DNA from: Cordylochernes scorpioides
Lineage: Eukaryota; Arthropoda; Arachnida; Pseudoscorpiones; Chernetidae
DNA length: 64,000 nucleotides
Assembly: GCA_030710605.1 (NCBI GenBank)
Contig: CP092869.1
Span: forward strand, 13,399,295 to 13,463,294
Direction: 5' to 3'
In this document: positions 2,708-59,150 of the stretch, in pieces
Numbering within the stretch: the stretch's first letter is position 1
How the letters are laid out: each line of letters opens with the position of its first letter
Notes under the pieces: generated by a model
The model's database searches: none
Told to the model about the DNA's origin: nothing
The model's input: only the letters and a program-made list of their open reading frames with translations
Made by a program: the position numbers and the translations under genes

Positions 2708-4031
2708 GCCTTTGTCTTAATTTATGAACCTTATCCCAGTACAATATCACATTTGTACTTTTTTTTCCAAATCTTTCGTTTTTGTTTTTTAGAGCTCACA
2801 GAGCTCTAATATGTCTTGAAGTCCCTTTCTTCTCAAGACATTCCCTATGTCTCTGTGCACATGGGAATACCATCTTCAATCAAGGCTGCCCTCAGCCACT
2901 CCTATGTACTACACTGACGTACGTCCTTCAAGTGAAAGTTGTCCTTGAGCTTGTAAAAAGGATGTTTACGGAAATTACCATCGTTTTCCTCTATCTCTTT
3001 CTATCCTTGTATTCCTGTACATTCGTCCATTTCTTGTAACTTATTTGAAACTTCGGATATCATATTTTATTCTAGTGAAGTGTAGACAATTGACAATTTA
3101 AACAATTGTATTGATTCTTCTCTTTTTATGTTTGATGTGTGTGTAAAAATCAAATAGACTTCTATGTAAGAAAAATAGTTCACCCCCTTCAACAAGAAGA
3201 AGGACCGTTAGGAATCCACATTTTACAGAAACGTATACTAAAAGAAGAAAGAGATCAGTATAGTAGGTTTGCATCTTGATATTTAAAGAAGAAAACACTC
3301 ATTTAAGTTGTTAAATGATTAATAATTATTAGGTTGCGTTGAAGGGGTTAATGATAAATTTGTATGTAAGTATTTGATGCTCACACAGCTCTTCAGTTGT
3401 CAAGATTTTTCAGCCTCTCGCACAAAGAAGGAAAAACGCCCAGGGTGGATCCTTCGACCCATATAGTCACTCGAGACGCTTCAGGTCAAAGTGTTCCAAA
3501 AACTAACAAAAAAAGAGTAAAAATTGAACAGAAAATAGCCAAGTAGGTGAAGACAAGTGTAGCCGCCTCCAAAATTAAATACATTCCCGAGGCACGTTTG
3601 TGTTTTTTGTGTAGGCGATGGCGCGTGGCTGAACTTCCTCTTCTGTCTTATGGTTGGTTTGGCGCCGCTTACATTCCTGTTGTTGTTCGGTCAGGTGGGG
3701 ATAACGGCTGTGGTGGTTCGTCACAGCTACTGGATAGGCAAATTACGTTTAACAACGGTTTTCTGACAAAGAAATCAACTAACTGAACTCAAATAGCTTC
3801 AAACAGTCGAAACTGTCGTATATGGGAGTCCCTGGAAACGAAGATACAGACTCAATGGTAAAGGATGAAGCATCCTGGTACCATCCGATAGAAATACACA
3901 TTTCAGTAAGAGATAACATCAGTCAACTAAATATGCAACCAACAAGAGGTAAAAGTTAAAATAGACAGCGTTGTTAATTCATGGTATCAAATGGAAACCC
4001 CAAGCAAGCAAGATTTAGAAAAGAATCCACT
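2708..4031. other. No recognisable gene
   Basis: Open frames at 2782-3039 (+), 3098-3298 (-) and 3547-3786 (+) lack domains, conserved motifs or supporting splice context. I saw no RNA gene. This is the longest stretch in the left part of the window with no assigned repeat and could still hold unrecognised transposon debris. Confidence 0.5.
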
Positions 4032-4540: not shown

Positions 4541-4922
4541 TACTTGAAACATTAGATAGTAAAAAGCCATATATTGGATTTAATAAAAGATTTATTTGCC
4601 AATATTTCGGCTGGCTGAACACCAACCTTTATCAAGTCATTACATTTTTGTAGACACAAACTCAGTGCCGCATAGTGTTATAATATCACAGTTGAAATCA
4701 TTTAAATACAAAGTAGGTGGGGGAAATTTGTGCATGAAAAAAATATTATAAATTTTTTTTTTTTTTTTTAATGATTTTAACTGAGATATTATAACACTAT
4801 GCGGCGCCAAGTTTGTTTATACAAAAATGTAATGTCTTGATAAAGGTTGGCGTTCAGCCAGCCGAAATATTGGCAAATAAATCTTTTATTCAATCCAATA
4901 TATGCCTTTTTATTATCTAATA
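4541..4922. repeat. Foldback (long inverted repeat) element
   Basis: Arms of roughly 145 bp (about 4548-4690 and 4775-4922) are inverted copies of each other. Landmarks are TTTGCCAATATTTCGGCTGG and its complement, and 'tgtgttataatatc'. The spacer is T-rich. The family recurs at 29217-29770, where it has been interrupted by another element. Confidence 0.8.
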
Positions 4923-11765: not shown

Positions 11766-12952
11766 TTTTTTTTTTTTTTTTTTTTTAACAATTTTTAAAA
11801 CTCATTTATATATTATACAAGAATGACATCTACGGCGCCAATTTATAATTGTAACGAATAGTATTTGAATAAAAGCATTTAATCGGGTAAAACCCGGGCG
11901 TTGCCCGGGTAATTCGGCTAGTTAAAAGTATATCTATGGATAGTGATCATTGTTGAACATGCTCAAGCTACATTTTGAATATTTGTATTATTTTCTATGA
12001 TATATAGAATAATGTAGAAACCTTACTCTGTAATAGAGTTTATTTATATAAATATAGCTAGACAATATGATAACCTATAGAAACATGATAGCCTATTAAA
12101 ACGATGATAAAAGAGATAACCTACATGATAGATAGTCTACTGCACAAACATCGACGAAAAGCGCGTAGAAGACATCATATTGCCACGTGGAAAATTAGGG
12201 AAGACCAACTTCGGGATGAGATAAAAATTTATTTCATGCAAAAACAAACTATGAGTGGTAAACAAAAGATAAACCACGAGGGAAATTTACAGAGTATCAA
12301 AATATAAATATCAAAAATGATAATCGGTTAATAAAATAATAAATACTTTGTTACATAACTCCTTTCCTATGGGAGCTGTGACCCACAGCTAGCAATTATT
12401 GTAGATACTGATATGGATCTGACGTGCTTCCATCGAAGTCTTGGAACTTTGTCCCTAGTACCTTTGCGTCCTTTTTCTTACGGCGTGAAGAGCGGCTTTG
12501 TCGTCGTATCGTCTATAGGGACATCGTCATCTTGGAGGGAAGTCTTGGCTTTAGCACCGCGGTGGAATTATCAAGAGGTAAACCTAGTTCTACATTTGTA
12601 GATGAACTGAAGAAGTAAACCAAGACAACCAAGTCTTTCCACTAGACTATAACTATGGATTGTTCATCTTGGAGAATCCTTATTAAGGAGGTATACCAGT
12701 CTTAGGAAATATTCACTTACATTTATAATAGTAAATAAATTGTAATAAATATTATAAATAGAGTTATATCCTTTCATGATATGTTTATTTTGTTCACTTA
12801 TATAGTTAGAAAAAGAGTATAAAAGTTTGAAATTCTACTGGGATCAGGTGGATAAATTAGTAAAGTTACACAATCAAAATATGTCTTTTCCCTCATTTAT
12901 ATAGCTAGGTTACTATATAGTGAAAGACACGCACACATTTTCTTTCTCTTAT

Positions 12953-13708
12953 ACACTCATGAACAAAACTTAAGTAGTTGTACCTTTCAGCATGTATATC
13001 GGGATTGAGACAATAACTCTGAATGATACACTCATAGACAAAACTTAAGGAAGTTGTACCTTTTAGCATGTATATCGGGATTGAGACAATAACTCTGAAT
13101 GATACTCTTGGACAAAACTTAAGTAGTTGTACCTTTCAGCATGTATATCGGGATTGAGACAATAACTCTGAATGATACACTCATAGACAAAACTTAAGGA
13201 AGTTGTACCTTTTAGCATGTATATCGGGATTGAGACAATAACTCTGAATGATACACTCATAGACAAAACTTAAGGAAGTTGTACCTTTCAGCATGTATAT
13301 CGGGATTGAGACAACAACTCTGAAAGATACACTCATGGACAAAACTTAAGGAAGTTGTACCTTTCAGCATGTATATCGGGATTGAGACAACAACTCTGAA
13401 AGATACACTCATGGACAAAACTTAAGGAAGTTGTACCTTTCAGCATGTATATCGGGATTGAGACAACAACTCTGAAAGATACACTCATAGACAAAACTTA
13501 AGGAAGTTGTACCTTTTAGCATGTATCTCGGGATTGAGAAAATAACTCTGAAAGATACACTCATGGACAAAGCTTAAGGAAGTTGTACCTTTCAGCATGT
13601 ATATCGGGATTCAGACAATAACTCTGAGAGATACCCTCATGGACAAAACTTAAGAAAGTTGTGCCTTTTAGCATGTATATCGGGATTGAGACAATAACTC
13701 TGAAAGAT
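12953..13708 (+). repeat. 76-bp tandem array of a Tc1-like end (about 10 units)
   Basis: The period is 76 bp (for example the same site at 13331 and 13407). Each unit runs from the terminal ACTCATGGACAAAACTTAAG through 'ttgtacctttcagcatg' to 'aactctgaaagat'. Confidence 0.9.
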
Positions 13709-13792
13709 ATCACAGTGACCTTTATTGAAGACACACTAGATAACCAAGTGTGAACAAAATTGCTTCTATCTACTTAAAAATATGTATAAAAT

Positions 13793-15487: not shown

Positions 15488-15753
15488 AAAAAGAGGTCTT
15501 AAGTATCATGTACTACCGACTGAGGGCTAGCGGGGACAAGTAGAATTATAAAGGTACAAGACTTTTAGAAGGAAGATTAGCCAAGACAGAAAGGTGTGGG
15601 GGTAAGTTGACCAAGGAAGGGAGCAATGTTTGTTCACTTGCCCCACTTCCCCATCCTTTCTGGTCGGTCCCCCATCTGTCAACATCACCCTCTCCTTCTA
15701 CACCTGTAAGGAAACACTTACTCCATGTGTATCGTACAAAGAATTTATATATA

Positions 15754-16935
15754 CAGTAGAACTTCCATGAGAGGACACTCACGCTAGAGGACACCGCTCT
15801 ACAAAAAGGCAGTTTCCATCACCAATACAGTAGAACCTCCATGAGAGGACACTCACGCCAGAGAACACCTTCTGTAAAAAGACAGTTTTCATCACCAATA
15901 CAGTAGAACTTCCATGAGAGGACACTCACGCTAGAGGACACCGCTCTACAAAAAGGCAGTTTCCATCACCAATACAGTAGAACCTCCATGAGAGGACACT
16001 CACGCCAGAGAACACCTTCTGTAAAGAGACAGTTTTCATCACCAATACAGTAGAACTTCCATGAGAGGGCACTCGCGCTAGAGGACACCGCTCTACAAAG
16101 AGACAGTTTCCATCACCAATACAGTAGAACCTCCATGAGAGGACACTCACGCTAGAGGACATCGCTCTATAAAGGACAGTTTTCATCACCGATACAGTAG
16201 AACTTCCATGAGAGGGCACTCGCGCTAGAGGACACCGCTCTACAAAGAGACAGTTTCCATCACCAATACAGTAGAACCTCCATGAGAGGACACTCACGCT
16301 AGAGGACATCGCTCTATAAAGGACAGTTTTCATCACCGATACAGTAGAACTTCCATGAGAGGGCACTCGCGCTAGAGGACACCGCTCTACAAAGAGACAG
16401 TTTCCATCACCAATACAGTAGAACCTCCATGAGAGGACACTCACGCTAGAGGACATCGCTCTATAAAGGACAGTTTTCATCACCGATACAGTAGAACTTC
16501 CATGAGAGGACACTCGCGCTAGAGGACACCGCTCTGTAAAGAGACAGTTTTCATCACCAATACAGTAGAACCTCCATGAGAGGACACTCGCGCTAGAGAA
16601 CACCGCTCTACAAAGGACAGTTTTCATCACCAATACAGTAGAACATCCATGAGAGGACACTCACGCCTGAGAATACCGCTCTGTAAAGAGACATTTTTCA
16701 TCACCAATACAGTAGAAATTCCATGAGAGAACACTCGCGCTAGAGGACCTCGCTCTATAAAGGACAGTTTTCATCACCAATACAGTAGAACTTCCATGAG
16801 AGGACACTCGCGCTAGAGGACACCGCTCTATAAAGGACAGTTTTTATCACCAATACAGTAGAACCTCCATGAGAAGACACCTCTCTACAAAGAGACAGTT
16901 TTCATCACCAATAGAGTAGAACCTCCATGAAAGGA
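15754..16935. repeat. 74-bp satellite of a pogo-like transposon end (about 16 units)
   Basis: Units begin ACAGTAGAACCTCCATGAGA and continue 'ggacactcacgctagagg', 'acaccgctctac', 'cagtttccatcacca'. The period is 74 bp (15754 to 15828) with some shorter units. The first bases are those of the pogo-like MITEs at 6033 and 9767. A dimer of two unit types (one with 'gggcactcgcgctag', one with 'catcgctctataaaggac') repeats three times at about 16045-16480. The long reverse-strand frame 15926-16660 is an artefact of the array. Confidence 0.9.
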
Positions 16936-24428: not shown

Positions 24429-25548
24429 GACGTTGAGCTTTGATTGGGTGGCGATGTGAGGCGGCTTTGACGTCGAGATTTCCTTGGGGCGATGTGCTAC
24501 TGCTCTGACGTCGAGATTTGCTTGGGGCGATGTGCTACTGCTCTGACGTCGAGATTTGCTTGGGGCGATGTGCTACTGCTCTGAAGTCGAGATTTGCTTG
24601 GGACGATGTGCTACTGCTCTGACGTCGAGATTTCCTTGGGGCGATGTGCTACTGCTCTGACGTCGAGATTTCCTTGGGGCGATGTGTGGAGGCTTTGACG
24701 TTGAGATTTCCTTGGGGCGATGTGCTACTGCTCTGACGTCGAGGTTTCCTTGGGGCGATGTGCTACTGCTCTGACGTCGAGATTTCCTTGGGGCGATGTG
24801 AGGCGGCTTTGACGTCGAGATTTCCTTGGGGCGATGTGCTACTGCTCTGACGTCGAGATTTCCTTGGGGCGATGTGCTACTGCTCTGACGTTGAGCTTTG
24901 ATTGGGTGGCGATGTGCTACTGCTCTGACGTCTAAATTTCCTTGGGGCGATGTGCTACTGCTCTGACGTCGAGGTTTCCTTGGGGCGATGTGCTACTGCT
25001 CTGACGTCGTGATTTCCTTGGGGCGATGTGCTACTGCTCTGACGTCGAGATTTCCTTTAGGCGATGTGCTACTGCTCTGACGTCGTGATTTCCTTGGGGC
25101 GATGTGCTACTGCTCTGACGTCGAGATTTCCTTGGGGCGATGTGCTACTGCTCTGACGTCGAGGTTTCCTTGGGGTGATGTGCTACTGCTCTGACGTCGA
25201 GATTTCCTTGGGGCGATGTGCTACTGCTCTGACGTAGAGATTTCCTTGGGGCGATGTGCTACTGCTCTGACGTCGAGATTTCCTTGGGGCGATGTGCTAC
25301 TGCTCTGACGTCGAGATTTCCTTGGGTCGATGTGAGGCGGCTTTGATGTCGAGATTTCCTTGGGGCGATGTGCTACTGCTCTGACGTCGAGATTTCCTTG
25401 GGGCGATGTGCTACTGCTCTGACGTCGAGTTTTCCTTGGGGCGATGTGCTACTGCTCTGACGTCGAGATTTCCTTGGGGCGATGTGCTACTGCTCTGACG
25501 TCGAGATTTCCTTGGGGCGATGTGCTACTGCTCTGACGTCGAGATTTC
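24429..25548. repeat. 38-bp minisatellite, about 29 units
   Basis: The unit is TGACGTCGAGATTTCCTTGG followed by 'ggcgatgtgctactgctc'. Variants replace the last part by 'aggcggctt' at irregular intervals (24455, 24800, 25330). Nearly every unit keeps TGACGTC and a CpG-rich core, in contrast to the AT-rich surroundings. Confidence 0.92.
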
Positions 25549-25682
25549 CTAGAAAACTTTCTGTTGCTCTGTAGATATTTTCTAGTGATGTTTTATAACT
25601 TTTGTTTAAAGAAGTTGACAGAGTTCATCGTATTGTGTGTGTTATGGCTTATCTTTCTATGTTCCAAAGAGAGCATGCTATT

Positions 25683-35735: not shown

Positions 35736-35841
35736 GTGCTGCTTCTCTCCCGCAAATCTACTATAATATTGGAACGATACAGAGAAGATTAGAATGGCCC
35801 CTGCGCAAGAATGACACGCAAAATCGTGAAGCGTTCCATAT
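35736..35841 (+). pseudogene. U6 snRNA-like copy, probably dead
   Basis: From TTGGAACGATACAGAGAAGA (35769) to 'gcgttccatat' the sequence follows metazoan U6 nearly base for base, including the ACAGAGA box, 'ctgcgcaagaatgacacgca' and the 3' stem. Three faults suggest a pseudogene. The catalytic AGC triad reads AGA (TTAGAATGG). The 5' stem-loop is scrambled (GTGCTGCTTCTCTCCCGCAA replaces the TTCGGCAG loop). No T-run follows the 3' end and no TATA precedes it. U6 is the catalytic snRNA of the major spliceosome; this copy is useful as the local reference for the array at 47503-48504. Confidence 0.8.
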
Positions 35842-36844
35842 AATATACGCTATTTTTAGTTATATATATTTTTTAATTTTATATGATGTTTGTTTTATTC
35901 GTATTCTGATTGGATGATCAATGTCACATGATCTTAATCGTCCAATCATCGTTGAGTTCATTAACCAATCAACTTTCAGAGTTTCTTTAGCTCATAGATT
36001 GCATTGAACAACAAATTTATTATTAAATATAAGATCATGGCTTCGATTCAAGGAAGTTCTCTTTGTTTTTGTTTTTTTAATTAAAAATATTTTAATTTCA
36101 TCATTCTAATTGTATATATATACTTTTAAAAATCACTTTTTTTATTTCTCAAGGTTTTATTCAATTATCGTGTTGATTTCAAAAAGGTATAAGACGTCCC
36201 AACTTTTTGTCATTATATAGGTTTTTTTTAATCTTTGACAATACTTGTATTATAAGGATCTTACACTCCTTAATCTGTAATAGGGAATTTCAGCGAAGTG
36301 AGAAGGGTCCAATTTTGTTAAATCGAGACGTTTTTAGGTTTAAATTGTTCTTGAAATGTACAGTCGCATGTTCTACGAGAGAGGGACTGTGGTTTTAATG
36401 TTCTAGTTAAACAAGAGGAAGGTAAACCCAGGAAATATAGTTTAAAAATCACGTTCATAGAGTAACCAACCCAACGTGTGATTGAGCAAGGCATTCCGTA
36501 ACATGGCACGCAAGCATTAAGGCAATTATAGTCCAGTAAGGAGAGAGCGTGCATCAAAAATTTGGAAGCCGTAATTTAATGTGCTTGCATATTTCTCCCA
36601 TTTCAGGAAGGCGAGCTCTTGCTTGTAGGCACGCAAGACTGTCGTTTTTACATTAATGGCCTTCATTCAATCTCTCTCTTCGAACTACAATACCTCTTCC
36701 AGCACTTAAGCTTCTATCTTTTCCTGACTTCGATTCTTCATTCTTAGCATGAGATGGTGTTGTTGATGCCGTGGACATTGAACAGCTTGGCTAGAAAGAA
36801 GTCAACCGGGAACAGTAACATGTTCCTGTACATGTCATACAGTC
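35842..36844. other. No recognisable feature
   Basis: AT-rich first half, mixed second half. Short frames at 36207-36398 and 36318-36557 have no domain. Confidence 0.45.
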
Positions 36845-38214: not shown

Positions 38215-38400
38215 TTTGGATTTTGTATTATAGAATTTGAATACAAGCCTCCTCAACTTCTTTGAATAACTCAAATTTTCGCTTTCGTAGAAATTTTTCT
38301 ATTGATCGGAACATACCATAATAAGAGGGAGAGCATTGTCAGGACTGTAAGGAGGATGAGGTAGGATCTTAACTCCAGATTTAAATCTTCAAATTTATGT
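38215..38400 (-). pseudogene. mariner-family transposase C-terminal fragment
   Basis: One minus-strand frame reads RFKSGVKILPHPPYSPDNAL, containing the PHPPYSPD motif that carries the third catalytic Asp of mariner DDD transposases. Another frame downstream reads KFLRKRKFELFKEVEEA, matching the conserved segment after it. Frameshifts and a stop (after MVCSDQ) show the gene is dead. Upstream on the minus strand (38400 and beyond) the frame ARMTKHKFEDL continues directly into the first unit of the 113-bp satellite, which supplies the VLFHQDN segment with the second catalytic Asp. The N-terminal DNA-binding part is not present. Confidence 0.8.
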
Positions 38401-41400
38401 TTAGTCATTCTAGCGGTGTTGTCTTGATGGAACAAAACCTGATTTCAACCAACAATAACTGGGTACTTCAGTACATCCTACACTCTGTCTAGCTGTTGAC
38501 AGTAAAGTACTGTTTGGTCATTCTAGCGGTGTTGTCTTGATGGAACAAAACCTGATTTCAACCAACAATAACTAGGTACTTCAGTACATCCTACACTCTG
38601 TATAGCTGTTGACAGTAAAGTACTGTTTAGTCATTCTAGCGGTGTTGTCTTGATGGAACAAAACCTGATTTCAACCAACAATAACTGGGTACTTCAGTAC
38701 ATCCTACACTCTGTCTAGCTGTTGACAGTAAAGTACTGTTTAGTCATTCTAGCGGTGTTGTCTTGATGGAACAAAACCTGATTTCAACCAACAATAACTA
38801 GGTACTTCAGTACATCCTACACTCTGTCTAGCTTTTGACAGTAAAGTACTGTTTAATCATTCTAGCGGTGTTGTCTTGATGGAACAAAACCTGATTTCAA
38901 CCAACAATAACTGGGTACTTCAGTACATCCTACACTCTGTCTAGCTGTTGACAGTAAAGTACTGTTTAGTTATTCTAGCGGTATTGTCTTGATGGAACAA
39001 AACCTGATTTCAACCAACAATAACTGGGTACTTCAGTACATCCTACACTCTGTCTAGCTGTTGACAGTAAAGTACTGTTTAGTTATTCTAGCGGTGTTGT
39101 CTTGATAGAACAAAACCTGATTTCAACCAACAATAACTGGGTACTTCAGTACATCCTACACTCTGTCTAGCTGTTGACAGTAAAGTACTGTTTAGTTATT
39201 CTAGCGGTGTTGTCTTGATAGAACAAAACCTGATTTCAACCAACAATAACTGGGTACTTCAGTACATCCTACACTCTGTCTAGCTGTTGACAGTAAAGTA
39301 CTGTTTAGTTATTCTAGCGATGTTGTCTTGATAGAACAAAACCTGATTTCAACCAACAATAACTGGGTACTTCAGTACATCCTACACTCTGTCTAGCTGT
39401 TGACAGTAAAGTACTGTTTAGTTATTCTAGCGGTGTTGTCTTGATAGAACAAAACCTGATTTCAACTAACAATAACTGGGTACTTCAGTACATCCTACAC
39501 TCTGTCTAGCTGTTGACAGTAAAGTACTGTTTACTCATTCTAGCGGTGTTGTCTTGATGGAACAAAACCTGATTTCAACCAACAACAACTGGGTACTTCA
39601 GTACATCCTACACTCTGTCTAGCTGTTGACAGTAAAGTACTGTTTAGTTATTCTAGCGGTGTTGTCTTGATAGAACAAAACCTGATTTCAACCAACAATA
39701 ACTGGGTACTTCAGTACATCCTACACTCTGTCTAGCTGTTGACAGTAAAGTACTGTTTAATCATTCTAGCGGTGTTGTCTTGATGGAACAAAACCTGATT
39801 TCAACCAACAACAACTGGGTACTTCAGTACATCCTACACTCTGTCTAGCTGTTGACAGTAAAGTACTGTTTAGTCATTCTAGCGGTGTTGTCTTGATGGA
39901 ACAAAACCTGATTTCAACCAACAATAACTGGGTACTTCAGTACATCCTACACTCTGTCTAGCTGTTGACAGTAAAGTACTGTTTAGTTATTCTAGCGGTG
40001 TTGTCTTGATAGAACAAAACCTGATTTCAACCAACAATAACTGGGTACTTCAGTACATCCTACACTCTGTCTAGCTGTTGACAGTAAAGTACTGTTTAGT
40101 TATTCTAGCGGTGTTGTCTTGATAGAACAAAACCTGATTTCAACTAACAATAACTGGGTACTTCAGTACATCCTACACTCTGTCTAGCTGTTGACAGTAA
40201 AGTACTGTTTACTCATTCTAGCGGTGTTGTCTTGATGGAACAAAACCTGATTTCAACCAACAACAACTGGGTACTTCAGTACATCCTACACTCTGTCTAG
40301 CTGTTGACAGTAAAGTACTGTTTAGTCATTCTAGCGGTGTTGTCTTGATGGAACAAAACCTGATTTCAACCAACAATAACTGGGTACTTCAGTACATCCT
40401 ACACTCTGTCTAGCTGTTGACAGTAAAGTACTGTTTAATCATTCTAGCGGTGTTGTCTTGATAGAACAAAACCTGATTTCAACCAACAATAACTGGGTAC
40501 TTCAGTACATCCTACACTCTGTCTAGCTGTTGACAGTAAAGTACTGTTTAGTTATTCTAGCGGTATTGTCTTGATGGAACAAAACCTGATTTCAACCAAC
40601 AATAACTGGGTACTTCAGTACATCCTACACTCTGTCTAGCTGTTGACAGTAAAGTACTGTTTACTCATTCTAGCGGTGTTGTCTTGATGGAACAAAACCT
40701 GATTTCAACCAACAATAACTGGGTACTTCAGTACATCCTACACTCTGTCTAGCTGTTGACAGTAAAGTACTGTTTAGTTATTCTAGCGGTATTGTCTTGA
40801 TGGAACAAAACCTGATTTCAACCAACAATAACTGGGTACTTCAGTACATCCTACACTCTGTCTAGGTGTTGACAGTAAAGTACTGTTTACTCATTCTAGC
40901 GGTGTTGTCTTGATGGAACAAAACCTGATATTAACCAGCAACAACTGGGTACTTCAGTACATCCTACACTCTGTCTAGCTGTTGACAGTAAAGTACTGTT
41001 TAGTCATTCTAGCGGTATTGTCTTGATGGAACAAAACCTGATTTCAACCAACAATAACTGGGTACTTCAGTACATCCTACACTCTGTCTAGGTGTTGACA
41101 GTAAAGTACTGTTTACTCATTCTAGCGGTGTTGTCTTGATGGAACAAAACCTGATTTCAACCAACAACAACTGGGTACTTCAGTACATCCTACACTCTGT
41201 CTAGCTGTTGACAGTAAAGTACTGTTTAATCATTCTAGCGGTGTTGTCTTGATGGAACAAAACCTGATTTCAACCAACAATAACTGGGTACTTCAGTACA
41301 TCCTACACTCTGTCTAGCTGTTGACAGTAAAGTACTGTTTGGTTATTCTAGCGGTGTTGTCTTGATGGAACAAAACCTGATTTCAACCAACAACAACTGG

Positions 41401-41558
41401 GTACTTCAGTACATCCTACACTCTGTCTAGCTGTTGACAGTAAAGTACTGTTTAGTCATTCTAGCGGTGTTGTCTTGATAGAACAAAACCTGATTTCAAC
41501 CAACAATAACTGGGTACTTCAGTACATCCTACACTCTGTCTAGCTGTTGACAGTAAAG
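38400..41558. repeat. 113-bp satellite made from a mariner transposase segment (about 28 units)
   Basis: The period is exactly 113 bp (38400 to 38513). On the minus strand each unit carries the coding sense VLFHQDNTARMTK, the mariner block around the second catalytic Asp, preceded by out-of-frame sequence with stops. Units are very similar; recurrent variants (T(C/T)ATTC, GA(T/C)GGAACA versus GATAGAACA, AACAA(T/C)AAC) recur in patches, suggesting recent homogenisation. Confidence 0.93.
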
Positions 41559-42779: not shown

Positions 42780-43925
42780 TTCTCCATTGATGGAGGGAGA
42801 TATGGAGAGACCATGTGGCCTAAACTCAGTAGAGGAAGGCATTGAAGGAGGGAGATATGGAGAGACCATGTGGCCCACCCTCAGTAGAGGAAGGCATTGA
42901 AGGAGGGAGATATGGAGAGACCATGTGGCCCACCCTCAGTAGAGGAAGGCATTGAAGAAGGGAGAAATGGAGAGACCATGTGGCCCACCCTCAGTAGAGG
43001 AAGGCATTGAAGGAGGAAGATATGGAGAGACCATGTGGCCTACCCTCAGTAAAGGAAGACATTGAAGGAGGGAGATATGGAGAGACCATGTGGCCCACCC
43101 TCAGTAGAGGAAGGCATTGAAGGAGGAAGATATGGAGAGACCATGTGGCCTACCCTCAGTAAAGGAAGGCATTGAAGGAGGAAGATATGGAGAGACCATG
43201 TGGCCTACCCCCAGTAAAGGAAGACATTGAAGGAGGGAGATGTGGAGAGACCATGTGGCCAGCCACCCTCAGTAGAGGAAGGCATTGAAGGAGGGAGATA
43301 TGGCGAGACCATGTGGCCTACCCTCAGTAGAGGAAGGCATTGAAGTAAGGAGATATGGATAGACCATGTGGCCAGCCATCGTCAGTAGAGGAAGGCATTG
43401 AAGGAGGGAGATATGGCGAGACCATGTGGCCTACCCTCAGTAGAGGAAGGCATTGAAGTAAGGAGATATGGATAGACCATGTGGCCAGCCACCCTCAGTA
43501 GAGGAAGGCATTGAAGGAGGGAGATATGGCGAGACCATGTGGTCTACCCTCAGTAGAGGAAGGCATTGAAGGAGGGAGATATGGCGAGACCATGTGGTCT
43601 ACCCTCAGTAGAGGAAGGCATTGAAGGAGGGAGATATGGAGAGACCATGTGGCCTAACCTCAGTAGAGGAAGACATTGAAGGAGGGAGATATGGAGAGAC
43701 CATGTGGCCAGCCACCCTCAGTAGAGGAAGACATTGAAGGAGGGAGATATGGAGAGACCATGTGGCCAGCCACCCTCAGTAGAGGAAGTCATTGAAGGAG
43801 GGATATATGGAGAGACCATGTGGCCAGCCACCCTCAGTAGAGGAAGACATTGAAGGAGGGAGATATGGAGAGACCATGTGGCCAGCCATCCTCAGTAGAG
43901 GAAGACATTGAAGAAGGAGGAGTAC
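42780..43925. repeat. 55-bp minisatellite, about 21 units
   Basis: The unit is GGAGGGAGATATGGAGAGAC, then 'catgtggcccaccctcag', 'tagaggaaggcattgaa'. Some units carry a 4-bp insert (GGCCAGCCACC). Purine-rich on the + strand. Confidence 0.93.
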
Positions 43926-46599: not shown

Positions 46600-47085
46600 T
46601 CGCTGGTTGTCTGTTTTTTTTTGTTTTTTTTTTTTAGGCAAGACAGAGGCAATTTTGTTTACATTTGGTTATCTCGTGTATCTTCAATAAAGGTCACTGT
46701 AATATCTTTCAGAGTTATTGTCTCAATCCCGATATACATGGTAAAAGGTACAACTTCCTTAAGTTTTGTCCATGAGTATATACAAATCTATAAGACAGAG
46801 GTAATTTTGTTCACACTTAGTTATCTCGTGTATCTTCAATAAAGGTCACTGTAATATATTTCAGAGTTATTGTCTGAATCCCGATATACATACTAAAAGG
46901 TACAACTTCCTTAAGTATTGTCCATGAGTGTATACAAATCTATAAGACAGAGGTAATTTTGTTCACACTTAGTTATCTCGTGTTTCTTTAATAAAGGTCA
47001 CTGTAATATCTTTCATAGTTATTGTATGAATCCCGATATACATGTTAAAAGGTACAACTTCCTTAAGTTTTGTCCATGAGTATAC
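46600..47085 (-). repeat. 150-bp tandem array of a Tc1-like element (3 units)
   Basis: Reverse orientation relative to 12953. Each unit holds 'cttcaataaaggtcactgta', 'ttattgtctcaatcccga', 'ggtacaacttccttaagttt' and 'gtccatgag'. The period is about 150 bp (46769, 46920, 47069). The unit includes internal sequence that the 76-bp arrays lack. Confidence 0.85.
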
Positions 47086-47472
47086 ATAGTGACATGCTAC
47101 CATTGTTTTCTTTTTCTTCTTTTTCTTAGACTTCAGAACGAGTTAATCAATATAAGACGAGATTTTGTTGCATATCATGCATGAATGTGCCCATGATGGT
47201 ACTATGGATACTTACCTAGTAGAAATAGTAAAAAAGAATGTACGCTGTCAACAAAGTGAGATACTTGAGAAAGACATTTCTCCATGAAAGTGGCAGTGCG
47301 ATGGGTGACTTGAGGACGCCTCCTGTTCCATTGGATGACCCCAGGGCCGAGCACAGACAATGGTGACGGTGGGCGGAGGTCACGGGCCTCGCCTCAATGA
47401 CGACCAAGAAAGAAGCTGACCATCTGTTTGCATGGCTCCATGAACTTTCACTACTCGTCTGTGACTTGGGTG
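47086..47472. other. Nothing recognised
   Basis: GC-richer block 47280-47400; the minus-strand frame 47216-47407 has no domain. Confidence 0.4.
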
Positions 47473-47482
47473 CTTATATCTT
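47473..47482 (+). promoter_or_regulatory. TATA-like box about 29 bp before the U6-like start
   Basis: 'cttatatctt' sits where a type 3 pol III U6 promoter would carry its TATA box if transcription began near 47503. I cannot identify a proximal sequence element near -60. Confidence 0.25.
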
Positions 47483-47502
47483 ACTTTAGATTGTTGCACC
47501 AA

Positions 47503-48504
47503 GTTGTAGCTTTGCAGGGTAAGGGATACACAGAGAAGATTAGCATGGCCTCCGTGATACCAGTTCGGCGGTACAACTACTACAATAGGAAGGATACAGA
47601 GAAGATTAGCATGAACCCTGTGATACCAGTTCGGCGGTACAACTACTACAATAGGAAGGATACAGAGAAGATTAGCATGGCCCCTGTGATACCAGTTCGG
47701 ATGTACAACTACTACAATAGGAACGATACAGAGAAGATTAGCATGGCCCCCGTAATACCAGTTCGGCGGTACAACTACTACAATAGGAAGGATACAGAGA
47801 AGATTAGCATGATCCCTGTGATACCAGTTCGGCGGTACAACTACTACAATAGGAACGATACAGAGAAGATTAGCATGATCCCTGTGATACCAGTTCGGCG
47901 GTACAACTACTACAATAGGAACGATACAGGGAAGATTAGCATGGCCCCTGTGATACCAGTTCGGTGGTACAACTACTGTAATAAGAACGATACAGAGAAG
48001 ATTAGCATGGCCCCTGTGATACCAGTTCGGCGGTACAACTACTACATTAAGAACGATACAGAGAAGATTAGCATGGTCCCTGTGATACCAGTTCGGCGGT
48101 ACAACTACTACAATAAGAACGATACAGAGAAGATTAGCATGGTTGCTGTGATACCAGTTCGGCGGTACAACTACTACAATAAGAACGATACAGAGAAGAT
48201 TAGCATGGTCCCTGTGATATCAGTTCGGCGGTACAACTACTACAATAAGAACGATACAGAGAAGATTAGCATGGTCCCTGTGATACCAGTTCGGCGGTAC
48301 AACTACTACAATAAGAACGATACAGAGAAGATTAGCATGGTCCCTGTGATACCAGTTCGGCGGTACAACTACTACAATAAGAACGATACAGAGAAGATTA
48401 GCATGGTCCCTGTGATACCAGTTCGGCGGTACAACTACTACAATAAGAACGATACAGAGAAGATTAGCATGGATGACACTCAAAATGGTGAAGAGTTCTA
48501 ATAA
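47503..48504 (+). pseudogene. U6-like sequence with its 5' half tandemly repeated 15 times
   Basis: Fifteen units of exactly 66 bp carry ACAGAGAAGATTAGCATGG, first at 47530 and last at 48454 (924 bp = 14 x 66). Across the whole unit the order is that of U6 nucleotides 1-64: a 5' stem-loop with a TTCGGC loop ('ataccagttcggcggtac'), 'actactacaataag', then AACGATACAGAGAAGATTAG and CATGGCCCCT. After the last unit the sequence jumps to GGATGACACTCAAAATGGTG and AAGAGTTCTAAT, which is the U6 3' end with about four substitutions. So one U6 copy has had its 5' half amplified in place. The ACAGAGA box and AGC triad are intact in 14 units; the unit at 47926 reads ACAGGGA. Because 66 is divisible by three, a frame of 357 codons (47428-48501) happens to stay open and reads a 22-residue repeat; I regard this as incidental. 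Confidence 0.85.
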
Positions 48505-48833
48505 GGATGTTATAAGAGGGTCACGTGTTTCCACAGGTCTGGGCACCGCAAGCTGCCGGAGGTGAAAGACCTGGGAAGTCGGGTCAGCCCAGGAAATCAA
48601 TAGAGAACCTCCACGATAGGTTTTGGCATGTCTCCGAGACCTATGACGTCACGCTACCTTCTTTCCTCTTCCAGTCATCCTTTAACGACAATCACAGCAC
48701 AGACATTCACTCTAAGTAAATACACCTTCATCCCTGACTTTACAATTTAATAAAATTAACAAGCACTCAAAGGCCAAATTTCTTTTACTATTTGTATCTC
48801 TATAGCTTTCGGGCTTATATGTCCTTCAACAGG
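48505..48833. other. Nothing recognised
   Basis: Short + frames only. The retroposon-like hairpin 'agctttcgggcttatatg' (reverse) lies at about 48804. Confidence 0.4.
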
Positions 48834-49370
48834 AGAACTAACACCTACCCACATATTCTCATGCCTAGCAATGGCCGCAGTCTTTCAGAAAATCGACATG
48901 GACCCAGAGCAGTAGCTTTACACACCCAAGATAGAGTACATTGTGACTGCTGTGATAGAGATGCATGGAGACATCTGAGGCTCTTCATTGGACACAACAA
49001 CAACAGAAAATTGACATGAACCCAGAACAGCAGCTTTACATACCCAAGATAGAGGACATTGCTACTGCTGTGATAAAGATGTATGGAGACATCTGAGGCT
49101 CTTCATTGGACACGACAACAACAGAAAATAGACATGGACCCAGAGCAGCAGCTTTACACACCCAAGATAGAGTACATTGTGACTACTGTGATAGAGATGT
49201 ATGGAGACTTCTGAGGCTCTTCATTGGACACGACAACAACAACATAAAATTGACATGGACTTAGAACAGCAGTTTTACACACCCAAGATAGAGGACATTG
49301 CGACTGCTGTGATAGAGATGTATGTAGACATCTGACGCTCTTCATTGGACACGACAACAACAAAGGAAGA
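48834..49370 (+). repeat. LINE 3' tail in four tandem copies (about 115-121 bp)
   Basis: 'gaaaatcgacatggaccca' or variants recur at 48888, 49009, 49124 and 49243. Each copy runs through 'cagctttacacacccaagat' to 'ctcttcattggacac' and (GACAACAACAAC). Only the first copy has the preceding codons (ACACCTAC.CACATATTCTCA). Stops interrupt every copy. Confidence 0.85.
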
Positions 49371-49869
49371 ACTAGTTGTATGACTTCCAACTAACTATAA
49401 CGGAGTGTATAGATAGCTGGAAGTCATTCACCTAGTTCTCCTTTTGAAGGGCATGTTGGCCCGAAAACTAGAGAAATGCTAATAGTAAAATAAACTTGGC
49501 CTTGAATTTTGCTTGTTGATTTTTTTTAAACTATAAGTAAACACTACATATAGTGCATTCTGTTTGCTGAGGATGGGATCATTCGACGCTTTTTTTCTGT
49601 GAATCTATAGGACTGATTTCTATAATTAGAGAACTGAAGATGTAAGCCATCAAATGCAGAGAGACTCCATTATTACAATAGTGGTAGCGATCTGGAAGAT
49701 TGAATGAATGAAATCGCTGGGGACATTCATCACTGATAGGTCAAACCATCCCAATTACGTATTTTACCATTTAAGAAGATATCGGTTTTGCTATTCATTG
49801 GAAAATGGGTGCCGTTGCTACGTTAGTCACCTTGGAAACGTACCAGAATTTGGTCAAATATTCCAAGGG
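49371..49869. other. Nothing recognised apart from a retroposon-like hairpin
   Basis: 'gaagggcatgttggcccgaa' at about 49446. The upstream part of the open frame at 49708-49870 is not LINE-like. Confidence 0.4.
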
Positions 49870-50140
49870 TCCAGGGGGGACCGCAGGAAGGTGTGGTCGG
49901 ACTTCTCTCCCCTCCCAAATACAATACATCCAGATGGCACAAGAACCTACAGGACATGCAACAACTGTCCTGGTGTGGAACTAACACCTACTCACATATT
50001 CTCATGTCCAGCAATGGCCGCAGCCTTGGAGAAAATTGACATGGATCCAGAACAGCAGCTTTACACACCCAAGATAGAGGACATTGGTGCTGCTGTGAAA
50101 GAGATGTATGGAAACATCTGAGGCTCTTCATTTGACACGA
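49870..50140 (+). pseudogene. LINE ORF2 C-terminal fragment, best copy of its family
   Basis: Encodes DGTRTYRTCNNCPGVELTPT then HIFSCPAMAAALEKIDMDPE and ends KEMYGNI-stop at 50121. The C-x2-C-x9-H-x4-C spacing is the terminal knuckle of Jockey/I-type LINE proteins. The 3' end is 'ctcttcatttgacacgac' and (AAC)n. The frame is open leftward to 49708, but that part is unrelated, so the copy is 5'-truncated at about 49865. Confidence 0.75.
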
Positions 50141-50323
50141 CAACAACAACAACCATTAAAGAACTGAAGATGAAAGCCATCATGTTGCAGGCAGACTATA
50201 TGATTGCAATATTAGCGTGATCTGCTAGATTTAAATTAGTGAAATCGCTTAAAAATTTCACCACTAAGCCAAGCCTTCACAATTCTCTTTCATTTTAAGT
50301 TTACTAATCGAAGTATTCTGGAA

Positions 50324-50423: not shown

Positions 50424-51047
50424 ACGGCGGTGGAATTATCAAGAGGGAACCTAGTTCTACATTTGTAGATGAACTGAACCAAGACAAATAAGTCTTACTA
50501 CCACACTATAACTATGGATTGTTCATCTTGGTGAATCCTTATTGATGAGGTATACCAGTCTTAGGAAATATACACTTACATTTATAATAGTAAAGAAATT
50601 GTAATAAATATTACACATAGCGTTAAATCCTTTCATAATATTTTTATTTTATTAACTTATTCAGTGAGAAGAATAGTATAAAAGTATTATAAAATAAATA
50701 AAGCTTCCAGGGTTAAGTTTCTTTTGCAACTTTTTATTTTCAAGTTTTCAGACTTGTCAGTTCTTCAACAGGATTATCACGTTAAATTTTTAATAATAAA
50801 TACATATTTTTTTTATATATACATAATTTAAATACTTATGATCTATTTAGAGAAAAAATATATTACATTATTTCAGTTTGAAAAACAAAATTTTTTTAAT
50901 TATAGTATAAAAGTATGAAATTTTACTGGGATTAGGTGGATGAAATAGTAAATTTGCACAATCAGGAAATGTCTTTTCCCTCATTTATATAGTTAGGCTA
51001 CTATATAGTTATATAGTGAAAGACACGCACACACTTTCTTTCTCTTA

Positions 51048-51825
51048 TACACTCATGGACAAAACTTAAGGAAGTTGTGCCTTTTAGCATGTATATCGGG
51101 ATTTAGACAATAACCCTGAATGATACACTCATGGACAAAACTTAAGGAAGTTGTGCCTTTTAGCATGTATATCGGGATTTAGACAATAACTCTGAATGAT
51201 ACACTCATGGACAGAACTTAAGGAAGTTGTACCTTTCAGCATGTATATCGAGATTGAGAAAATAACTCTGAATGATACACTCATGGACAAAACTTAAGGA
51301 AGTTGTGCCTTTCAGCATGTATATCGGGATTCAGACAATAACTCTAAAAGATACACTCATGGACAAAACTTAAGGAAGTTGTACCTTTTAGCATGTATCT
51401 CGGGAATCAGACAATAACTCTAAAAGATACACTCATGGACAAAACTTAAGGAAGTTATACCTTTCAGCATGTATATCGGGATTCAGACAATAACTCTGAA
51501 AGATATTATAGTGACCTTTATTGAAGACACACTAGATAACCAAGTGTGAACAAAATTGCTTCTGTCTACTTAAAAATATGTATATATTATTCTTCAAATT
51601 AAAGATACTCTTGCCAGTAAATCTTTTTTGTTGTCTCGACGTTTCGACAAAAGACGAGGAAAAAAGATTTTTGTCGAAACAATAAAAAAGATTTACAGAA
51701 CGATATATTTTAATTTGAAGAACTATGAATTCCAGTCAGGCAGCCTCTATCTTTATGATATATAAATAAAAATACTCAAAGACTTTTTACTTCCTTAAGT
51801 TTTGTCCATGAGTGTAAAATAACAT
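51048..51825 (+). mobile_element. Tc1-like element with six-unit end array
   Basis: Copy B of 12953-14028: six 76-bp units (51051-51506), the internal block, the foldback at 51595-51722, and the right end TTAAGTTTTGTCCATGAGTG at about 51805-51824. Confidence 0.8.
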
Positions 51826-55043: not shown

Positions 55044-57272
55044 ATTTATGTCTCAAATAGGAAAAGGTACACGACCTTAATAAACTTCAACAAGAAAAAA
55101 TATCTTCAGGAAAAACAAGAACTTCTTAAAAATGCCCGTGACTCCGCAAACTTTTGGAAAACTATAGCTACCTTGAAAGACAAAAGCTATATACAAGGAA
55201 ATATAACAATTTTAGAGTGGCAATGCTTTTACAACAAACTGCTCTCTGCTGAAACGACGATAGGAAGCGACCTATCTACTCTCTCACGAATTGATCCTGA
55301 ACTCTACTGTGAAATCTCCATAACAGAAATAACTAGAGAAATCTCCAGTCTGGCAAATGAAAAAGCTTGTGGCGCTGACGAAATTCCGAATGAAGCATTA
55401 AAGACCCTACCTTTCGAACACCTTGTTACTCTAAAAAATATATTCAACAGAATCATTAATTCTGGTTCATATCCCTTAATATGGTCTAAATCTATCATCC
55501 ATCCTATTTTTAAAAGCGGTGACCGGGATAATCCATCAAACTACCGCGGAATTGCCCTTATTAGTAATCTGTCAAAACTTTTCACATCAATACTAAAATC
55601 GCGATTACGCAACTGGATTGAAGGTAGATCAATTATTCCAGAAAACCAGGCCGGATTCAGAAAAGGCTACTCCTGTCAAGATCACATATTCACACTGTTG
55701 TCCTTGATACAGCTGACTCTCAGACGTAAAAGAAGAAAACTCTATGCTTTTTTTGTGGACCTAAAAAAGGCTTTTGACACTGTTCCCCACTCACTTCTGT
55801 GGTCAAAATTGGGTGAATTAGGTCTGGATTTCCGCTTTGTTAACCTTATCAGGAACTACTTCGAACAAATGACAACGACGGTGAGATGGAATGGACTATT
55901 TACTGAACCCATCAAAATCCGATCGGGAGTGTTACAAGGAGAACCCTTATCACCCTATCTATTTATACTCTTTGTAACTGATTTAATCAACATTTTTAAT
56001 GACTCTACTCTACCAGGCATATACCTCCCTAATTTTGGAACGGTCCACCTTTTGATGTATGCCGACGACATAATTCTCATAGGAGAATCAAAAATCAATC
56101 TACAAATAAAAATCAACATGTTGAAAAAATACTTCGAAACAAATCATCTAACCCTGAACGAATCAAAATCCAAGATAATGGTTTTCCGAAATGGTGGCCG
56201 CCCTGCAAAATCGGACAAATGGTTCTGGGGAGACCAACTGTTGACAGTGACATCGAAATATCTCTATCTTGGCTATCCCCTCACAACAACAATCTCGTTT
56301 AGTCAAGTGGCTTCATACTTCAAAGGCAAAGCGCTTGCAGCTACCGGCGAAGTATGGAAAATTATGGAGAAATCCAGGTTGAATTCATTTGGTTCATCAA
56401 TGAAACTATTAGACTCGATTATCCTGTCAACTCTGCTGTATTCTGCTCCAATTTGGGCAAACGAAAAGTACAAAATCTTGGACCAAATTCAGAATAACTA
56501 TCTCCGACGACTATTGAACTTGCCGAGTAACACACCAGGCTACATACTACGCATGGAAACCGGACGCTTCTCACTAGGAGTCACAGCAACCAAACTAATT
56601 CTAAAGTTCTGGTTAAGAATATTAAAAATGGAAAAATCCAGATTGCCCGCAATCTGTCTAGCCCAATTATGGGAAACGTCCACTCTGACGAATGCCTTTA
56701 TAGGTTTTACAGAAAATTTAATGAATATCCTAAACTCAACTGGATTCATGTGGTTAAAGAATTGTTCAGGCCCCAATATTCTACAGAAAGCAATACCTCA
56801 AATTATCAGAATCACTATAGAACAGTCTATCCAAACCGACCAATCAAGAATAACCAATTCGAAGCTACACACACACTACAAATATTTACATAAAACATTC
56901 GCAGCAGAGAACTATCTACTAAGTGAACTCCCACTGCCGGCTAAACGCCTCATTGCGCAATTGAGAATTCTATTTGTTTTATATCGAGAAGACCATATAA
57001 AATATCTAAGGACAGAAGACTTGTATTGCCAACTATGCAAAAATAGAACCGAAAATGAATTAGAACATTATATATTTGAATGCATGCCTCTTGACACGGA
57101 AAGAAAAATACTCTTCTCTAAGATAGGCCATACACACTTCACATTATATTCTTTATTATCCAACTTTATAGACAATAGTTCAGTAGCTCTAAATCTATAT
57201 AACTTCCATAAAAATGCTGTAAAAAAGAAAGACTTAACCGAACATTCAAACATACCAAAAATTTCTGTTTGA
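55044..57272 (+). CDS. LINE ORF2 fragment: reverse transcriptase and C-terminal zinc knuckle
   Basis: The frame is open from the insertion junction (first whole codon 55044) to TGA at 57270-57272, 742 codons, with no ATG near the start, as expected of a 5'-truncated element. Counting from codon TTG at 55173, fingers motifs are near residues 105-135 (IIHPIFKSGDRDNPSNYRGI), motif A is FVDLKKAFD (194-202), motif B is SGVLQGEPLSPY (251-262) and the catalytic YADD is at 296-299. A thumb/connector region follows, then CQLCKNRTENELEHYIFEC (about 619-637), a C-x2-C-x9-H-x4-C knuckle. The product would copy LINE RNA into DNA at a nicked target. The apurinic-type endonuclease is absent, so this copy cannot move alone, yet its frame is undamaged. 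The Jockey/CR1-like group is my best placement; the exact clade is unproven. Confidence 0.93.
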   Translation: MYVSNRKRYTTLINFNKKKYLQEKQELLKNARDSANFWKTIATLKDKSYIQGNITILEWQCFYNKLLSAETTIGSDLSTLSRIDPELYCEISITEITREISSLANEKACGADEIPNEALKTLPFEHLVTLKNIFNRIINSGSYPLIWSKSIIHPIFKSGDRDNPSNYRGIALISNLSKLFTSILKSRLRNWIEGRSIIPENQAGFRKGYSCQDHIFTLLSLIQLTLRRKRRKLYAFFVDLKKAFDTVPHSLLWSKLGELGLDFRFVNLIRNYFEQMTTTVRWNGLFTEPIKIRSGVLQGEPLSPYLFILFVTDLINIFNDSTLPGIYLPNFGTVHLLMYADDIILIGESKINLQIKINMLKKYFETNHLTLNESKSKIMVFRNGGRPAKSDKWFWGDQLLTVTSKYLYLGYPLTTTISFSQVASYFKGKALAATGEVWKIMEKSRLNSFGSSMKLLDSIILSTLLYSAPIWANEKYKILDQIQNNYLRRLLNLPSNTPGYILRMETGRFSLGVTATKLILKFWLRILKMEKSRLPAICLAQLWETSTLTNAFIGFTENLMNILNSTGFMWLKNCSGPNILQKAIPQIIRITIEQSIQTDQSRITNSKLHTHYKYLHKTFAAENYLLSELPLPAKRLIAQLRILFVLYREDHIKYLRTEDLYCQLCKNRTENELEHYIFECMPLDTERKILFSKIGHTHFTLYSLLSNFIDNSSVALNLYNFHKNAVKKKDLTEHSNIPKISV

Positions 57273-57721: not shown

Positions 57722-58005
57722 GATAAGCAATAAAAAAAAAGAGGTTTTAAGTACCATGTTCTACCGACGGAGAACTAGCCGGGACAAGTAAAGTTATAAA
57801 GGTAGAAGACTTTTAGAAGGAAGATTAGCCAAGACAGAAAGGTGTGGGGGTAAGTTGACCAAGGAAGGGAGCAATGTTTGTTCACTTGCCCCACTTCCCC
57901 ATCCTTTCTGGCTGGTCGGTCCCCCTTCTGTCAACATCACCCTCTCCTTCTACACCTGTAAGGAAACACTTACTCCATGTGTATCGTACAAAGAATTTAT
58001 ATATA

Positions 58006-59150
58006 CAGTAGAACCTCCATAAGAGGACACTCGCGCTAGAGGACACCGCTCTACAAAGAGGCAGTTTCCATCACCAATACAGTAGAACCTCCATGAGAGG
58101 ACACTCACGCTAGAGGACACCGCTCTACAAAGAGGCAGTTTCCATCACCGATACAGTAGAACTTCCATCAGAGGACACTCGCGCTAGAGGACACCGCTCT
58201 ACAAAGAGGCAGTTTCCATCACCGATACAGTAGAACTTCCATCAGAGGACACTCACGCTAGAGGACACCGCTCTACAAAGAGGCAGTTTCCATCACCGAT
58301 ACAGTAGAACTTCCATCAGAGGACACTCGCGCTAGAGGACACCGCTCTACAAAGAGGCAGTTTCCATCACCAATACAGTAGAACTTCCATGAGAGGACAC
58401 TCACGCCAGAGAACACCGCTCTGTAAAGAGACAGTTTCCATCACCGATACAGTAGAACTTCCACGAGAGGACACTCGCGCTAGAGGACACCGCTCTATAA
58501 AGGACAGTTTTCATCATCAATACAGTAGAACTTCCATGAGAGGACACTCGCGCTAGAGGACACCGCTCTATAAAGAGACAGTTTTCATCACCAATACAGT
58601 AGAACTTCCACGAGAGGACACCTCTCTACAAAGAGACAGTTTCCATCACCAATACAGTAGAACTTCCATGAGAGGACACTCGCGCTAGAGAACACCGCTC
58701 TATAAAGGACAGTTTTCATCACCAATACAGTAGAACTTCCACGAGAGGACACCTCTCTACAAAGAGACAGTTTCCATCACCAATACAGTAGAACTTCCAT
58801 GAGAGGACACTCGCGCTAGAGAACACCGCTCTATAAAGGACAGTTTTCATCACCAATACAGTAGAACTTCCACGAGAGGACACCTCTCTACAAAGAGACA
58901 GTTTCCATCACCAATACAGTAGAACTTCCATGAGAGGACACTCGCGCTAGAGAACACCGCTCTATAAAGGACAGTTTTCATCACCAATACAGTAGAACTT
59001 CCACGAGAGGACACCTCTCTACAAAGAGACAGTTTCCATCACCAATACAGTAGAACTTCCATGAGAGGACACTCGCGCTAGAGAACACCGCTCTATAAAG
59101 GACAGTTTCCATCACCAATACAGTATAACCTCCATGAAAGGACACTAACA
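58006..59150. repeat. 74-bp pogo-end satellite, copy B (about 16 units)
   Basis: Same units as 15754-16935, but the higher-order pattern differs: a dimer of a short unit ('cacgagaggacacctctct') and a full unit ('gagaacaccgctctataaag') repeats four times at about 58595-59110. Confidence 0.9.

Follow-up and report, generated by a model that had tools for sequence, protein, structure and literature searches.

The window, as we call the whole 64,000-nucleotide stretch of DNA analysed here (C7:13399295-13463294, from the 2.62-Gb genome of Cordylochernes scorpioides in 24 contigs), contains an array of 66-nt units that match U6 snRNA, as well as a second, single U6 copy. The features under study are as follows:

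47524..47553, + strand: first unit, truncated, in which U6 extends from roughly the GATAC preceding the ACAGAGA box as far as CATGGCC (from the sequence; left border by eye).
47554..48477, + strand: 14 further 66-nt units, each consisting of the linker GTGATACCAG followed by U6 that begins at TTCGG and reaches about CATGGCCCCT; the last continues into the U6 3′ part (TRF, Infernal, comparison with host U6, box spacing).
48473..48498, + strand: U6 3′ part, ATGACAC to GTTC, with the preceding 13 nt deleted (Infernal alignment).
47428..48501, + strand: 357-aa open frame spanning the array (66 = 3 × 22), without sign of coding constraint (ORF and substitution counts).
47151..50323, no strand assigned: array-bearing segment duplicated 44 kb away (L030); its limits are those of the longest alignments and may extend further.
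35741..35845, + strand: the second U6 copy, without an array (RF00026, 84.9 bits).

TRF recognized a tandem repeat at 47530-48472 with a period of 66, 14.3 copies and 95% matches. Infernal yielded 14 RF00026 matches on the + strand of the array. Thirteen are partial, running from model position 1 to 57-65 with 40.1-50.2 bits (one, at 48085-48142, scores under the gathering score of 44), and the last, at 48415-48507, is the single full-length match (52.6 bits, with a 13-nt gap). These results bear out the observation of an earlier note that 66-bp units match U6 and that the last of them enters the U6 3′ part. The 5′ stem-loop is covered from model position 1, so the failure to cover it, which that note had proposed as a refutation, did not occur, and its view of the array as an internal expansion within a U6 copy and no random minisatellite holds on the same alignments. 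The spacing is as regular as had been claimed: 15 ACAGAGA boxes lie exactly 66 nt apart from 47530 to 48454. The box is intact in 14 of 15 units (the exception, at 47926, reads ACAGGGA) and AGC is present in all 15, which agrees with the claim that 14 of 15 units keep both the box and the AGC triad. The figure of 15 units fits the number of boxes, but the first of them is incomplete and begins, truncated, at about 47524. At the other end, the last unit lacks 13 nt, so that CATGG is fused to ATGACAC, just as the join had been described, and the copy terminates in GTTCTAATAAGG.

Other repeats are present in the window as well. A minisatellite family of 76 bp (or 152 bp) occupies three places (12951-13709, 51047-51505 and 46640-47084; TRF); by eye, one of these adjoins the U6 array and runs on the opposite strand. 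TRF also reported long minisatellites at 15751-16930, 24450-25550, 38398-41558, 42785-43917 and 58003-59146, and tandem growth seems to be common in this genome. A reverse-transcriptase frame lies at 55173-57272, with proteins of C. scorpioides as its best matches.

Comparison with the host's own U6 refined the picture of the unit. The first ~10 nt (GTGATACCAG) differ and identity begins at TTCGG; therefore, the unit is a linker followed by U6 from TTCGG to CATGGCCCCT. The notion that the unit equals U6 nt 1-64 throughout is not supported, since its beginning is linker. With another left strand, the unit can still form a 5′ stem, by computation a weaker one (-5.1 kcal/mol, compared with -9.2 for the 5′ half of host U6). 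The array units lack the U6 3′ half, and so would the units of the multi-U6-core RNA that the earlier note envisaged if the array is transcribed. U4 was considered as a source of the linker and rejected, as the similarity was too weak.

The earlier note had treated the array as a lone curiosity. Genome-wide sequence and junction-pattern searches ruled out a unique locus: the unit-junction pattern was found 19,381 times (9204 + 10177; at most 2 mismatches), compared with 0 for the reversed control. The array is thus not a product of chance and represents one locus of a dispersed family. The U6 3′ part was found at 4843 places, the authentic U6 5′ end at 3260 and the array-type first unit at 1957, each with a control of 0; all four pattern counts are incomplete. 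A 174-nt query gave at least 263 matches with 40 of 836 candidates scored, on at least 17 of the 24 contigs among the matches listed. The first 100 exact junction places lie on C1 as far as 65.2 Mb; counted by hand, they fall into 13 clusters, from which we roughly extrapolate to about 500 arrays genome-wide. Taking one 66-nt unit per junction, the 19,381 junctions would amount to about 1.28 Mb. The exact junction pattern was not found in viral_contigs or genome_contigs, which hold viral and prokaryote contigs and from which records of the C. scorpioides genome are possibly excluded. Some stretches consist of N, as an assembly artefact might leave behind, but many loci have distinct flanks, variants of their own and target-site duplications, and we regard an artefact as very improbable.

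The arrays possibly lean towards chromosome ends. In the 174-nt search, the outer 10% holds 15 of 38 loci (p 0.005); for loci with a unit variant described below (L064) the share is 11 of 41 (p 0.18). The first 7.1 Mb of C1 contain 8 of 13 arrays vs 4 of 41 U6 3′ ends, a limit that was picked after looking.

For anatomy, we inspected L009 and 20 array loci, 20 loci found by first-unit or tandem match, 40 U6 3′ ends and 7 further arrays. The number of units runs from 2 (L130) and 3 (L067, L131) to at least 53 (L046, up to the fetched end), and one-unit copies exist too (L059, L062, L068). For the window copy and 21 other loci, the left border (by eye) lies at or near U6 +1 in 9 cases and inside a truncated first unit in 10, both groups including duplicated pairs; it was not clearly readable in L032, L040 and L047. 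On the right, readable arrays mostly end at or just after GTTC. Like tailless retrocopies, they have a truncated U6 3′ end and no poly(A). The 40 U6 3′ ends, sampled from the 4843 as exact matches on the + strand of C1, included four in 66-nt arrays (L091, L095, L100, L102) and one in a whole-copy tandem (L101). The rest occur singly, and a dozen or more are 5′-truncated; one (L108) has an inverted U6 piece in front, and the pairs L096/L097 and L106/L107 resemble duplicates of each other.

Pieces of U4 snRNA are fused directly to the 5′ ends of two U6 copies, one an array and the other a single copy (L009 4096-4170 on the - strand and L060 1-109; Rfam U4 47.5 and 53.5 bits). These look like chimeras, as from template switching. 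U4-like letters are also seen by eye, without an Rfam run, upstream of L074.

Target-site duplications were scored as gapless matches between flanks, for which both ends were usable at 45 of 83 loci. A score of at least 10 was reached by 17 of these 45 vs 0.2% of controls. Among arrays it was reached by 4 of 19 (L036, L041, L044 and L050, the last a whole-copy tandem; controls 0.2%). A second run covered 22 arrays, with L040 omitted and L067, L130, L131 and L133 added after inspection. Here, 8 of 22 scored at least 8 (controls 5 of 462; 4 of 18 without the added loci) and 5 of 22 at least 10 (controls 1 of 462). Many single U6 copies carry such duplications too. The remaining 14 of 22 arrays stay under a score of 8, and flank comparison gave no convincing duplication for the window copy or its duplicate L030, which counts against the explanation that we favour.

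That explanation, which we hold to be probable, is that the array belongs to a dispersed, non-autonomous U6-derived family that arose by LINE-type insertion and internal duplication, spread as short multimers and expanded locally. A LINE-type enzyme would reverse-transcribe U6 RNA into new sites. Priming inside the U6 3′ end would yield tailless copies stopping at GTTC. In one lineage, an internal duplication via a short linker would have taken in about U6 nt 8-12 through 66, and copies with two or a few units would then be transcribed and insert at new sites. At each site, slippage or unequal exchange at the DNA level would multiply and homogenize the units to give from 2 to more than 50. The explanation builds on the abundance of the family, the duplications at a minority of arrays, the junctions common to many loci and the gradation from one unit to many.

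The junctions bear on whether the duplication happened once. The common form is CCCCTG-TGATACCAG-TTCGG. A variant, TGATACTTG-TTCGG, occurs in L063, L133 and L135 together with mixed junctions; it retains the host CTTG and in part accompanies an authentic U6 body (L063, L135), from which we infer that it is older. Other tandems are joined differently: TGATACTCTACACGC-TTGTTCGG with a period of 75 nt (L052, L053), ACACGC also with 75 nt (L051) and CCCCTGTG-TTCGG with 59 nt (L069). L055 is a U6 tandem with a period of 61 nt, while in L050 (113 nt) and L054 (125 nt) a whole copy plus its target duplication is the repeat. U6 tandems were also noted at C1:31290377, C1:38669717 and C1:87407365, with periods of 48, 88 and 112 nt (from listed positions). 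This diversity of junctions and periods (59, 61, two kinds of 75, 113 and 125 nt; 48, 88 and 112 nt), as well as the local spread of the L064 variant, is what one would expect if every array had originated independently from one U6 retrocopy at its site, with the identical junction recreated each time. Such repeated origins seem improbable to us, since one non-U6 linker recurs 19,381 times and the units of the window array and L030 hold U6 parts missing from their own truncated first unit.

The next question is in what form the arrays moved. The variant analysis used 449 of 468 units from 33 of 34 loci (L055 was skipped). Several loci have unit variants in common, and these segregate inside the arrays. 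Within arrays, variation occurs at body position 27 in 29 of the 33 loci, at position 50 in 21 and at position 23 in 15. Loci on C7 and on C1 share the 13-nt terminal deletion although their flanks differ; this deletion could also be recurrent via GG microhomology. We count the shared segregating variants and the shared deletion for inheritance of several units. Both, together with the duplications that flank some whole arrays, would also suit a true multimeric SINE, that is, a long multi-U6 RNA that is transcribed and then retrotransposed in full, entire arrays being moved at once with little change thereafter. Such an element is nonetheless unlikely. By eye, the breaks of truncated arrays at 8 independent loci fall within the first unit, at about its positions 11-39, whereas random stops in a long RNA would be expected anywhere, and duplicated loci differ in their number of units. 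The segment at 47151-50323 has a 93% identical copy at L030 with 19 units, and duplicated pairs have 15/19, 11/20 and 15/15 units, or 12 vs at least 19 in a gap-bearing pair; their alignments, arrays included, are 86-97% identical.

These differing numbers, the variant of L064 and the alternation of two unit types in L136 are counted for local expansion. Exact matches to the L064 variant number 81 and group, by hand count, into 41 clusters; the L064 array contains 10 of them and a single other array another 10, while the scattered single ones are compatible with recurrent mutation. Units are slightly more alike within loci than between them (distances of 0.056 vs 0.0715), and this small gap is counted against short multimers followed by local expansion. 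Unit order was tried as proof of whole-array copying and set aside as uninformative: 30 of 190 locus pairs gave p <= 0.05 (about 9.5 expected), but none of the 4 duplicated pairs ranked in the top 25 of 190, so duplicated loci are not collinear either; this loss of order also counts against the explanation that we favour. Overall, we favour short multimers as the inserted form, with local expansion afterwards.

A source of the arrays was sought among U6 loci with a promoter. The host U6 promoter pattern occurs at 80 places in the genome. At 16 promoter-bearing U6 loci (including L003-L006) we saw no array, the interiors of 10 being not readable; two U6 landmarks stand 80 nt apart in 15 and 79 nt apart in one, which is the distance of a single gene. 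The lack of such a source among these 16 speaks against a multimeric SINE and also against our preferred explanation. On C7 the pattern occurs once, at 10.9 Mb, and belongs to another sequence. The window copy has neither the host promoter pattern nor the intact body of a functional U6 gene, as it has lost 13 nt; it may have a divergent promoter. Eight promoter-pattern places (L119, L123-L129) are a different dispersed sequence that resembles the U6 TATA region (AAATGCAGGGTATATAASAAAA...) and has no Rfam match. Likely U6 gene clusters lie at C20:27.70-27.90 Mb (18 places) and C8:91.216-91.224 Mb (3), where a conserved box, roughly TAGATACCATTCTGCTGTG, lies upstream of TATA.

The 357-aa frame is open and matches four predicted C. 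scorpioides proteins and one metagenome protein (E 1.7e-7), as would a repeat protein encoded by the array. Counting distinct variants per locus, transitions gave 59 silent to 128 replacement changes (16:35 available) and transversions 24:144 plus 13 stops (12:82 plus 8 available). With every unit counted, silent changes even fall below expectation (126:396, and 29:384 plus 25 stops). Replacement changes occur as often as an unconstrained sequence predicts, and stops are present among the variants; we therefore rejected a repeat protein as extremely improbable. The arrays are probably functionless. A bolder idea, and a quite doubtful one, is that multi-U6 RNAs made here act as a U6-based SINE: the 5′ stem-loop and the ACAGAGA/AGC core might recruit U6-binding proteins or U4, hold the RNA in the nucleus near a LINE reverse transcriptase and so favour its own copying. 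The joined U4-U6 copies would fit the closeness that this posits.

Among known systems, the closest kind in the literature covered is the SINE-derived satellites (sSats) of squamates. These are dispersed loci at which a segment of a retroelement is tandemly repeated (67 nt in snakes), for which duplication followed by amplification has been proposed (Vassetzky et al. 2023, PMC10702118). In the portion of that paper considered here, the likenesses are terminal units that reach the ends of the element, variant junctions, alternating unit types and a similar unit length, along with homogenization with length in sSats. The U6 arrays, too, are tandems of part of a retroelement whose terminal units match its ends. 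Unlike sSats, which have a SINE progenitor with its own 3′ end, they derive from U6 snRNA retrocopies: the progenitor is U6 along its length, and comparison with Rfam U6 showed no separate SINE body or LINE-like tail. Target-site duplications, found here in a minority of arrays, go unmentioned in the same portion.

The insertion step proposed here matches that of the tailless, 3′-truncated U6 retropseudogenes, which have target-site duplications, truncation inside the 3′ end and priming by short pairing (Doucet et al. 2015, PMC4476161). In the part of that paper considered, these are single copies from mammals and other vertebrates, with no mention of tandems or arthropods. A repeat family of primates is likewise U6-derived, judging by a 2009 title cited in PMC13174262. 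SVA (SINE-R, VNTR, Alu) resembles the arrays in being LINE-mobilised and in carrying internal tandem repeats whose number varies; according to the portion of the same source considered, it is a composite human element whose repeat is not an snRNA. A search of titles and abstract openings of open-licence papers revealed no U6-derived tandem family among the papers listed.

A known route to satellite-like DNA seems here to start from a new source, U6. For annotation, our results are a warning that Rfam U6 matches and some predicted proteins in the C. scorpioides genome stem from arrays. As single copies, dimers, trimers and long arrays coexist in one genome, young insertions offer a way to test how a retrocopy becomes a satellite-like array. 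In this pseudoscorpion, a spliceosomal RNA appears to have been the seed of a large tandem-repeat family.
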